A DNA stretch of 64,000 nt from Mesotoga sp. BH458_6_3_2_1 (GTDB taxonomy: Bacteria; Thermotogota; Thermotogae; Petrotogales; Kosmotogaceae), in the NCBI RefSeq assembly GCF_003664995.1, contig NZ_JFHL01000002.1, positions 124,001 to 188,000 on the forward strand. Reading direction: 5' to 3'. Made by a program: the position numbers and the translations under genes. The first letter of the stretch is position 1. Every line of letters begins with the position of its first letter. The notes beneath the pieces were generated by a model, which had not been told where the DNA came from, did not search any database, and saw nothing but the letters and a program-made list of their open reading frames with translations. This document shows positions 3,703 through 27,340 of the stretch, in pieces.

Positions 3703-4474
3703 TTGACGCTTCTAGAAGCTAGAAGCTTGCATGCAGTTTTGGCGGAAGATAACGTAAAGATATTGAAGGGCTTGAGCCTCAAAATAGGAAACTGAGAGTT
3801 GCAAGTTATCATCGGACCCAATGGTAGCGGTAAATCAGCTCTAGCAAATGTGCTGAAGGGAAACCCCAAATACAGAGTTACTAGTGGTACTGTGAAATTC
3901 ATGAATAAGAACACAGCTGGATGGGCTGTAGACGAAAGAGCTCGAATGGGAATGTGCATACCTTTCAGCATCTTCAGGAAATTCCAAGGATCAGACTCAG
4001 GAGCCTTCTCATATTAGTCTCTCAAAGGACCGGCAGCCGGGAGCCATTACTGAAAATGAGCAAAGAAATCGACAAACTATCTCTTGAACTTGGTCTCGAA
4101 AGTGAATTAATAGATATTTGAACGTAGGCTTTTCCGGAGGGGAGAAGAAAAAATTCGAGATGGTTAAGAAGAACTTAATTGAGCAAAGGTTTGCGGTTCT
4201 TGACGAAATAGATTCCGGGCTGGATGTCGACGCTATGAAAAGCACAGCGTTGTCAATAAACGGATTCAGAAATCCAGAAACTTCAGTTTTACTAATCACA
4301 CACTATCAGAGGCTTCTTGAGCATGTTGAGCCCAACCATATTCACGTCTTGATCGATGGATCGATAGCAATGAGCGGAGGAAAGGAACTTGCTAGAGAAG
4401 TTGAATTGAAGGGATATGAAGGGACCTTTGGCTCACTCAAGGGGGCCGGATCATACGAGAAGAAGTTTTCCTAG
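3703..4474 (+). pseudogene. sufC: sufC remnant (Fe-S assembly ATPase), broken
   Basis: The translated pieces line up with SufC from end to end: LLEARSLHAVLAED, an intact Walker A IIGPNGSGKSALA (near 3815), NPKYRVTSGTVKF, DERARMGMC, then in another frame NVGFSGGEKKKFEM (ABC signature), FAVLDEIDSGLDVDAM (Walker B) and the C-terminal GYEGTFG...KKFS. It is interrupted by an in-frame TGA near 3793, a frameshift with stops around 4017-4118, and loss of part of the Q-loop region. GGAG upstream of TTG 3703 marks the old start. The motifs survive well enough that inactivation looks fairly recent. It is not expected to make an active ATPase. Confidence 0.88.
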
Positions 4475-4476
4475 AC

Positions 4477-4845
4477 AGTACTGAGTTTGAATTCCTTTCA
4501 GATACTAAGTACCGTTTTATAAGCGGAAGAGGATTCTAGGAGAGGCGGTTTATTCGTTTATGTACCCAAAGGAGTCAAAGTCCCCCTTCCTCTTCAGGTA
4601 CATTCTAGAATGAACGAGGAAAGCAGCGGTCAATTTGAGCACACGTTGATCATTGCAGATTAAGGTTCAGATCTACAGTTCATAGAAGGCTGTTCTGCTA
4701 CGAGATTCAACGATCTCAATCTTCATGTTGGCATGGTAGAAATCTTTGCTCTAAAAGATGCGAAGGTCAGGTATTCTACGATTCAGAACCGATCCAAGAA
4801 AACGTACAACTTGAATACCAAGGGGCAATTGTCGAGGAGGGCGTA
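4477..4845 (+). pseudogene. sufB: sufB remnant, internally deleted
   Basis: It starts three bases after the sufC stop with [18 protein letters not shown], which fits the SufB N-terminus. A stop (near 4538) and a deletion then jump about 100-150 residues to [29 protein letters not shown], a TAA, FIEGCSAT and VRYSTIQNRSKKTYNLNTK, the centre of the SufB beta-helix core. The following AIVEEG is in a shifted frame. After that the similarity switches to SufS. The C-terminal half of SufB, with its catalytic Cys/Glu region, and all of sufD are missing. Identification rests on these order-preserved motifs, not on an alignment run. Confidence 0.85.
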
Positions 4846-5236
4846 ATACAGAACATTTCCGGTGCCGTTTCACTTGCATCGGCCCGCCGATACCTGAACA
4901 AGGTCGGTGTGCCCGCGACACACGAGTGCGTTTCCCATCTTGCATAAATCGCTAGAGAGAAGAAAGAAGAGATCTCCGATGTTACTGTTTACAGTTCACC
5001 AGATAGTCTGCGATTTTGCTATTTTATCACAAGAAAACACACTCTCACGATCTGGCCGAATTCCTTGAAAGAACTCAGGCAGTTGCATCAGGAGCGGTCA
5101 TCATTGTGTTCAACTTCAGATGGATGCACTTGGCATTACTTCGGCTTGTAGAGAGTCACTCTACTTGTGCAATACGGTTGAAGATGTTGAAAGACTTATA
5201 GAAGGGATTTGCAAAGTAGAAAGGTGGTTCTTATGA
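4846..5236 (+). pseudogene. sufS: sufS remnant (cysteine desulfurase C-terminal third), broken
   Basis: From about 4846 the frame reads NISGAVSLASARRYLNKVGV, HECVSHLA (stop), AREKKEEISDVTVYSS, then after frameshifts HDLAEFLE, IRSGHHC, MDALGI, CRESLYLCNTVEDVERLIEGI. This is the conserved C-terminal region of type II cysteine desulfurases, including the RSGHHC segment. The pyridoxal-phosphate lysine and the whole N-terminal two thirds are absent. The old stop TGA (5234-5236) overlaps the sufU ATG by four bases, the usual translational-coupling arrangement, so operon spacing is preserved while the coding capacity is lost. Confidence 0.83.
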
Positions 5237-5617
5237 ACTGCGAGCAACAATATTCCGACTTCATAATGTATCACTTCATGAACAATACGCATCGAGGACG
5301 TCCAGAGGACTCTAATTACACAGTCTAGGGCTCGAACACTTCTTGTGGAGATTCGATTACTAATTATCTGATTATTGGAAGAGGAATTGTTAATTCTATG
5401 GGATTTGAGGGCGAAAGCTGCGCGATAAGCGAGGTATATGCGGCAGTTATGACGGAGATTCTAGAAGGTAAATCTCTTGAAAAAGCCGGTGCGACAATTG
5501 TAATTTCGAGAAAATGAGACGTGGTGAGAGTATGATGGGTCAAAAATCGTTGATGCTGACTTTTTTGAGAGATTGAAGTGTGCAATCCTTCATGGAAAAC
5601 AACTGCGAAAGTTCTAA
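5233..5617 (+). pseudogene. sufU: sufU remnant (sulfur-transfer/scaffold protein), broken
   Basis: It begins YSDFIMYHFMNNTHRGRPED, the SufU/NifU N-terminal pattern. After a TAG near 5323 it continues with TSCGDSI (first metal Cys plus Asp), FEGESCAISEVYAAVMTEIL and GKSLEKA (second Cys). It ends in a shifted frame with RLKCAILHGKQLRKF (third Cys). All three zinc-binding cysteines of SufU are therefore still legible, but in different frames or after a stop. This is the last gene of the decayed suf cluster. A minus-strand terminator for the neighbouring operon follows. Confidence 0.85.
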
Positions 5618-5628
5618 TTTCTGAACAG

Positions 5629-5655
5629 CAAAAAAAGACCGGTGCATAACACCGG
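5629..5655 (-). terminator. Intrinsic terminator of the TPR/90-residue operon
   Basis: On the minus strand, CCGGTG-TTATG-CACCGG is followed by a run of seven T (5630-5636 on the plus strand are A). It lies 47 bp beyond the stop of the 90-residue minus-strand gene. Confidence 0.85.
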
Positions 5656-25653: not shown

Positions 25654-26610
25654 CTATCTGAGCATTCCTCTGACAATCATATCAGTTGCCTCTTCTTCAC
25701 TCAGACCCTTGGACATCAATGTCTCCATCTGCTTTACGTTTACTCTTCCGATCGATGCTTCGTGAGTAAGCTCGGCCTTTTCATTTGTGACGTATAACTC
25801 GGGAACCGTTCCGACCTCTACGGAGTCACCTTTGATAATCTCGTTGCATTCTATGTGTCCTCTGGAGAAAGGTGCATTTCCATAGGCCTTGTTAATAATC
25901 TTGGCCCGACTTCTGTCAGTAGCAAATACAGTTGTTCTTGCTATCCCTGAAGAGCCCTCACCATTCAGGTAGAGTTCTTCATCTATTTCGAGATAGTCAT
26001 CTTCGCGTTCATAAACCTTGGATTCTATATGAGCCGATGCGTATTTCTCAAGAGTAACACTCATCTTGACGAAAAGCTTTCCGACTCTGGTCTTCGTTAG
26101 ATAAAAGTGGTTCTGAAAGCTACCGCCCTCTCTGACGATTGTATTGTACGTTGCCTTGACGGTTACACCGCCATCCTTACTGTGCATGTGCGTGTCTTCG
26201 TACAACATTTCTGAGTCTTTTCCAACATCTGTATCGGCGACCATGGAGTGCGTAAAATTCACGCCGCTAGGAAAGACGCAGTGAGAAATGAATTTCACCC
26301 TGGCTCTGTCTCCCAAGTGGTTATGAATAAGAATTTCTTGAGTTCCTTCGGGCTTCAAGTAACCGGTACAGAGATGTATGGGGTTTTCTATTACAGTGCC
26401 ATCATCGATGTCAATCCAAATCTCTACTCCATTGTCCAATTCTTTTGCCCTCACATGCACGCCATCTACCGTATTCCTACCAATTACTTTGTTTCCGCCA
26501 ACAATAATCGATACAATATCCTTCCTCAAGAAATCAGAGACATTGCCGCCTGATTTCTCATACTCCTTGGCAATTGCCGTGAATTCTCTCTCATAGTTTG
26601 ATTCAATCAT
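25654..26610 (-). CDS. SufB/SufD-like Fe-S scaffold of a minimal two-gene SUF system
   Basis: 318 residues, SufBD family but shorter than SufB (about 470-495). It has the beta-helix core and the C-terminal helical part: RGHIECNEIIKGD, ELTHEASIGRVNVKQMETLMSKGLSEEEATDMIV. Cys255 (HIEC) and Glu284 (THEAS) are 29 residues apart, the same spacing as the essential Cys405 and Glu434 of E. coli SufB, which supports an active scaffold. The long SufB N-terminal region is missing, and there is no separate sufD. ATG 26610 overlaps the sufC-like end by eight bases. Fits the SufCB-only ('SMS'-like) arrangement described for archaea and early bacteria. Confidence 0.86.
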   Translation of the reverse strand: MIESNYEREFTAIAKEYEKSGGNVSDFLRKDIVSIIVGGNKVIGRNTVDGVHVRAKELDNGVEIWIDIDDGTVIENPIHLCTGYLKPEGTQEILIHNHLGDRARVKFISHCVFPSGVNFTHSMVADTDVGKDSEMLYEDTHMHSKDGGVTVKATYNTIVREGGSFQNHFYLTKTRVGKLFVKMSVTLEKYASAHIESKVYEREDDYLEIDEELYLNGEGSSGIARTTVFATDRSRAKIINKAYGNAPFSRGHIECNEIIKGDSVEVGTVPELYVTNEKAELTHEASIGRVNVKQMETLMSKGLSEEEATDMIVRGMLR

Positions 26611-27340
26611 TGGCAAGCCCGCCTTCCTTAACCGGCTCATTTATGTGCTGACAGCTGTCACAGAGTTTCCTGTAAAAACTAACGATTTCTTCCGGTTCAC
26701 CCGAAGCAAGTATTCTGCCTCCACAAAGAAGATATGCTTCGTCTGCCATCCTTGCAATTTCTTCCCGGTGAGTGATGATTATAACTATGGAGCCTTTGTC
26801 TCTAAGCCTTTCGAGTACATGCTCAATCATTTCCATAGACATTATGTCTATGCCGGAATCAGGTTCATCGAGAATAGTGACTCGGGGATTAACCAGGATT
26901 ATTGAAGCCAGTTCGACTCTCTTCCTCTCTCCGCCGCTGAGCGATTCATCAACAAACCTATCCAGGTAATCTCTGTTGAGGCCTACTGTGGAAAGCGTCT
27001 CATCGAGTTCCTCTACGGAAAGCTTCAGTTTGCCGCCTAGAGTAAGATATTCTCTAACCGTAAGCCCCTCGAATCTTACCGGTTCCTGCCAACCAAGAGA
27101 GATGCCTTTCTTTGCTCTCTCTGGTACTGACAGTAAATCTATTTCTTCTCCATCAAGATAAACATTTCCCTCGTAGTCTTTATGCGACTCGAGACCCATA
27201 AGAACATATGATAGTGTTGACTTTCCAACGCCATTGTTTCCGAGAATTGCGTAAACTCGACCTTTTTCAAAGGAAGCCGTGAGACTGTTCAGAATCTTCC
27301 GCTCTTCCCTGACTAACTTGATTTCTTTTACCTCCAGCAT
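26603..27340 (-). CDS. SufC-like Fe-S assembly ATPase
   Basis: 245 residues. Walker A LGNNGVGKSTLSYVLMG, SLGWQEPVRFEGLTVREYL at the Q-loop, signature DESLSGGERKRVELASI, Walker B VTILDEPDSGIDIMSME and His-switch IITHREEIA. SufC ATPases drive conformational change in the SufB scaffold. This copy ends CDSCQHINEPVKEG, with a short two-cysteine tail not seen in the dead sufC at 3.7 kb. ATG 27340 follows GGAGG; the frame is open upstream but without a start signal. With the SufB-like gene it forms a complete minimal module. Confidence 0.9.
   Translation of the reverse strand: MLEVKEIKLVREERKILNSLTASFEKGRVYAILGNNGVGKSTLSYVLMGLESHKDYEGNVYLDGEEIDLLSVPERAKKGISLGWQEPVRFEGLTVREYLTLGGKLKLSVEELDETLSTVGLNRDYLDRFVDESLSGGERKRVELASIILVNPRVTILDEPDSGIDIMSMEMIEHVLERLRDKGSIVIIITHREEIARMADEAYLLCGGRILASGEPEEIVSFYRKLCDSCQHINEPVKEGGLAND

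Follow-up and report, generated by a model that had tools for sequence, protein, structure and literature searches.

A two-gene SUF-like minimal system for Fe-S cluster assembly beside a decayed SUF operon in a Mesotoga genome

We analyzed a stretch of 64 kb of a Mesotoga genome (hereafter the window), in which an adjacent pair of intact genes corresponds, as judged from sequence comparison, phylogeny and predicted fold, to smsC and smsB of a SUF-like minimal system (SMS) in a bacterial host. Very probably, this pair was formerly a second system working beside SUF; the SUF operon has decayed, leaving SMS as the sole scaffold of a known type, and the [4Fe-4S] cluster is probably carried by SmsC, with the complex, the cluster, the ATP cycle, the sulfur source and the essentiality of the pair extrapolated from work on M. 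jannaschii and T. kodakarensis. Regarding the whole phylum, we lean towards the proposal that Thermotogota ancestrally hold an archaeal-type SMS beside SUF and have repeatedly shed the latter, and that some free-living bacteria would make all their Fe-S clusters on SMS, possibly from sulfide without a dedicated desulfurase.

The pair is located on the minus strand, with the following features:

26603 to 27340, minus strand: smsC, ABC-type ATPase of SMS, 245 aa
25654 to 26610, minus strand: smsB, short SufB-like beta-helix scaffold, 318 aa

Both reading frames are open and overlap by 8 nt, so that the complete SufC-like ATPase and the short SufB-like scaffold recognized in an earlier note on this DNA are indeed intact. 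The start assigned to smsB by the ORF caller (26640, a longer form) is probably too early, since the orthologues in two congeners are of 318 aa, and residue numbers of SmsB given here refer to the 318-aa form. The order smsC-smsB, with no sufD, sufS or sufU at the locus, shows synteny across the Mesotoga genomes that were compared, and no intact copy of SufD, SufS or SufU was found within the 64 kb, in agreement with the earlier note. Both genes are under strong purifying selection, with dN/dS values of 0.04-0.08 against the two closest sisters. Promoter and terminator scans around smsCB gave nothing above chance, and no SmsB relatives were detected on viral contigs in our scan.

The minimal SufCB arrangement that had been proposed for this pair is backed by sequence, tree and predicted fold. 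In a phmmer search of the Protein Data Bank, SmsB matched M. jannaschii MJ0034 (SmsB) with 192 bits (E=1e-55) and E. coli SufB with 28 bits; likewise, SmsC matched M. jannaschii MJ0035 (SmsC) with 230 bits (E=3e-67), its best SufC match being that of T. thermophilus with 126 bits. A profile built from 37 SmsB sequences scored 341 bits against MJ0034, 120 against the M. mazei protein of entry 4dn7, 60 against SufB and 37 against SufD. Phylogenetic analysis of 68 SufBD-core proteins placed the window SmsB together with MJ0034 in the SMS clade (support 99), separate from SufB and SufD; this is a clade of Fe-S scaffolds and not the non-Fe-S SufBD clade that the earlier note had considered as the alternative. 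Within the same tree, the 21 labelled Thermotogota SmsB constituted one group (support 100) whose branching follows taxonomy, the window copy nesting inside its own genus and family; the SmsB of an early-branching Thermotogae MAG (L132) fell outside this group. The AlphaFold model of SmsB (pLDDT 92) had 9h78_B as its first Foldseek match (TM 0.83/0.91), and its predicted fold contains the SMS hallmark of a beta-helix with a C-terminal helical hairpin docking SmsC. The NCBIfam SmsB model NF052511 gave 77 bits, below its cut-off of 650; with its 445 positions this model resembles the long SmsB type, and it sets a naming threshold rather than a biological definition of SMS. Relatives were found in named public genomes (n=546), of which the best 80 span many bacterial phyla and some archaea, smsC adjoining smsB at 79 of these 80 loci. 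A divergent short SufBD protein (G100:C74:19816-20730), with 25% identity to the window SmsB, lies outside the orthologous set.

Conserved residues point in the same direction. By alignment, C206, C227 and C230 of SmsC correspond to C218, C239 and C242 of M. jannaschii SmsC, which are the ligands of a [4Fe-4S] cluster that resides on SmsC and not on SmsB (PMC12192291). The Cys triad is present in every Thermotogota SmsC extracted, and among 35 diverse SmsC sequences C230 is invariant while C206 and C227 are conserved in at least 90%, which extends the cluster site described in M. jannaschii to Thermotogota and to most bacterial SmsC sampled. In SmsB, residues C111, C255 and E284 align with C254, C405 and E434 of E. 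coli SufB, where C254 is the sulfur entry and C405 and E434 constitute the cluster site (PMC5571166); H283, beside E284, is likewise conserved. The spacing of 29 residues between Cys255 and Glu284, which the earlier note had equated with that of the E. coli pair, was confirmed by this alignment. The pair is present, as claimed, but in M. jannaschii it is not this pair that carries the cluster, which sits on the C-terminal cysteines of SmsC (PMC12192291); these cysteines, absent from the earlier note, are conserved here. On the evidence of these alignments, the SmsC triad is a stronger sign of SMS than the Cys/Glu pair of SmsB. Ten SmsB residues are invariant in the 37 sequences (H79, C81, H110, C111, H121, H141, H143, H252, C255 and H283), a His/Cys set whose potential metal or sulfur ligands outnumber those accounted for by the SufB site; M. 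jannaschii SmsB has been reported not to bind a cluster (PMC12192291).

From the retention of the SmsC triad and of C111, C255 and E284 in SmsB, we infer the same mechanism as in M. jannaschii. SmsC and SmsB would probably form an SmsC2B2 heterotetramer, with SmsB as a beta-helix dimer and SmsC as the ABC ATPase, and the [4Fe-4S] cluster would probably be built on C206, C227 and C230 of SmsC. Binding of ATP and of the cluster would alternate, as in the M. jannaschii system, where the two are mutually exclusive (PMC12192291). Clients could then receive the cluster either directly or via Mrp/ApbC. Sulfide and the housekeeping IscS-like desulfurase are the two candidate sulfur sources, used singly or jointly, and SmsB may provide a second route for sulfur.

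The same window holds what is left of a SUF operon. In sister genomes, the order of this locus is mreB, DUF368, sufCBDSU, a TPR gene and tyrS, and the intact sufCBDSU at the same place comprises 5.0 kb, from which about 1.9 kb are left here as the following remnants:

3703 to 4447, plus strand: sufC remnant with one in-frame stop and two frameshifts (tblastn with SufC of the sister genome G028)
4453 to 4846, plus strand: sufB remnant, an N-terminal piece and a stop-bearing middle piece with about 443 bp missing between them (blastn/tblastn against G028, PF01458)
4836 to 5233, plus strand: sufS 3' remnant, following a deletion of about 2560 bp (comparison with G028, Aminotran_5 tail match)
5224 to 5646, plus strand: sufU remnant with stops and an eroded C-terminal half (comparison with G028, NifU_N)

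Two deletions are thus combined with frameshifts and stops, the larger of them having taken the remainder of sufB, the whole of sufD and most of sufS. The dN/dS values of the remnants are 0.23-0.35, as compared with 0.07-0.17 for the intact SUF genes of sisters. The dead SUF operon described in the earlier note is therefore real, and syntenic with the intact sister operon.

The search was extended to the whole genome, a draft of 3.23 Mb in 36 contigs with 99.98% completeness. Matches to PF01458 were restricted to the window SmsB and the broken sufB, those to NifU_N to the broken sufU, and no match to Nfu was found genome-wide. A SUF system comprises a SufB-SufD heterodimer, SufC, SufS, and SufU or SufE, and the genome holds remnants of it; of the IscU/NifU-type scaffold that characterizes ISC, MIS and NIF, it holds no intact copy. 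As no intact SufB, SufD, SufS, IscU/SufU/NifU or Nfu was found, SMS is the only known scaffold type left, and the genome-wide search suggested in the earlier note yielded no second intact SUF or ISC; an unrecognised scaffold may exist elsewhere in this genome. The Mrp/ApbC carrier is intact, and 28 radical-SAM matches indicate that the demand for Fe-S clusters persists. The Aminotran_5 search returned one strong, intact IscS-like desulfurase, alongside the tail of sufS and weaker matches of the same fold class; its gene adjoins ligA, encodes the catalytic loop GTSSACSS and is kept in 17 of 17 genomes of the family.

This enzyme bears on the sulfur source, for which the earlier note had suggested sulfide instead of a desulfurase. 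It appears possible, if doubtful, that SMS needs no desulfurase in this Mesotoga and draws on sulfide, whether environmental or produced by the cell. The dedicated desulfurase gene sufS is broken, sulfide production from elemental sulfur is known from one Mesotoga strain (PMC4603820), and E. coli devoid of both ISC and SUF is rescued by the M. jannaschii SMS only when Na2S is supplied and oxygen is excluded (PMC12192291). However, the intact IscS-like desulfurase is conserved throughout the family, a desulfurase acting on cysteine can serve the SMS of T. kodakarensis (PMC12442378), and SmsB C111, aligned with the sulfur-entry residue of SufB, is invariant. The use of sulfide is thus compatible with the evidence but not required by it, and sulfide-only operation is unproven because the IscS-like desulfurase remains.

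All seven other nearly complete Mesotoga genomes harbor SMS together with an intact SUF, and SMS occurs beside an intact SUF in most Thermotogota. In a second Mesotoga genome (G031, 80% complete), the whole SUF operon has been cleanly deleted and SMS kept, DUF368 and the TPR gene being separated there by some 370 bp of unrelated sequence (L108:5205-6000, G031:C195). In the tree of the flanking TPR gene, the window species branches with three genomes that carry SUF and G031 branches with M. prima, which indicates two independent SUF losses in Mesotoga. Within the phylum, SUF has broken down a third time in G069 (one contig, 99%), where an IS240-type transposase adjoins a sufD truncated near residue 72 (L212:5737-9151, G069:C1). 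This locus has intact sufC and sufB but lacks sufS and sufU; genome-wide, NifU_N gave no match, and an intact SMS is encoded at another site. Judging from the sequences compared, the SMS genes of Thermotogota are orthologous, of old standing in the phylum and passed on vertically. Hence, of the switch to a minimal system envisaged in the earlier note, the loss of SUF and the integrity of SMS stand, but the term replacement should be amended, since SMS is the older second system, inherited vertically and coexisting with SUF in most relatives.

This coexistence would also fit an SMS-clade relative with another function, such as a special client or repair, general assembly being carried out by an unrecognised scaffold; furthermore, SMS is dispensable in M. 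acetivorans, where its deletion left the Fe-S content unaffected, suggesting that it might serve another role (PMC10500019). We consider this improbable, as the cluster ligands of SmsC are conserved, SUF has been lost repeatedly where SMS stays and no other scaffold family was found, and, in a transposon screen cited in PMC10500019, SufBC of M. maripaludis was reported as essential. It is still less credible that the decay of SUF is an assembly artefact, or that the 36-contig draft misses an intact copy in one of its gaps: the completeness is very high, the locus is internal to a single contig and its flanks match those of the sisters, large deletions accompany the stops and frameshifts, and the remnants occupy the syntenic position at which the sisters carry SUF, with no second copy found. 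Finally, a recent horizontal acquisition of SMS displacing SUF, which the location of both systems within one window might suggest, was rejected, being contradicted by the single Thermotogota group in the SmsB tree with the window copy inside its own genus and family, by the presence of both systems in 7 of 7 other nearly complete congeners and by the synteny of smsCB in the Mesotoga genomes compared.

Under the preferred reading, namely an ancestral SMS left behind by the decay of SUF, the closest counterpart is the M. jannaschii SMS (MJ0035/MJ0034; PDB 9h78, 9h7y, 9hbl; PMC12192291), with which the pair shares gene adjacency, a short SmsB, the Cys triad of SmsC, the fold and the lack of SufD. 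In contrast, the host is here a bacterium that once ran SUF too, and its genome encodes an IscS-like desulfurase, whereas none was identified in M. jannaschii (PMC12192291). The T. kodakarensis SmsB-SmsC (PMC12442378) is similarly a scaffold without SufD, of SmsB2C2 composition, but its SmsB is long and SufB-like (430-450 residues), unlike the short type of the window (318 residues). The sufC1B1/sufC2B2 genes of M. acetivorans (PMC10500019) likewise represent a minimal SufBC next to another system; there, however, ISC remains and SMS is dispensable, while this Mesotoga has lost SUF and yielded no ISC in our searches. The SUF of other Mesotoga (sufCBDSU) resembles the pair in its SufC and SufBD folds and lies in the same neighbourhood, about 21 kb off, but it has SufD, SufS and SufU, belongs to a separate clade and is dead in the window species.

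SMS itself was already known, best from methanogenic archaea, and the novelty here is that of bacteria caught falling back on it. The need for SMS in vivo is disputed, as it rescues E. coli with sulfide (PMC12192291) and is dispensable in M. acetivorans with ISC (PMC10500019). The combination of a decaying SUF, no ISC and an intact SMS amounts to a natural knock-out, which makes two-gene sufficiency directly testable in bacteria, and this Mesotoga supplies a native set of SMS partners for study.

Among other genomes, one that is 94% complete (G098) gave no match to the SufBD core or to NifU_N and no SmsB, owing to a missing contig or to another system, which advises caution on absences in drafts. 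An IscU/SufU/NifU-type gene also occurs in 33 of 43 other SMS genomes, so that SMS without such a gene is uncommon in that set. A Dehalococcoidia chromosome record of 1.03 Mb (L202, CP070810.1) has SMS and no IscU/SufU/NifU match, which makes it, as far as these gene types are concerned, a candidate SMS-only bacterium. Two genera of a further family (f8), both devoid of SufB and SufD, carry SMS, IscU and IscS genes at one locus. An in-gene TGA flagged in the second NifU-like gene of these genera was considered as a selenocysteine codon and rejected, the TGA being the terminal stop. Their loci (L115:3309-8901 and L116:3156-8778) are arranged as smsC-smsB followed by a purine nucleoside phosphorylase, two IscS-like desulfurases, IscU and a short NifU-like protein.
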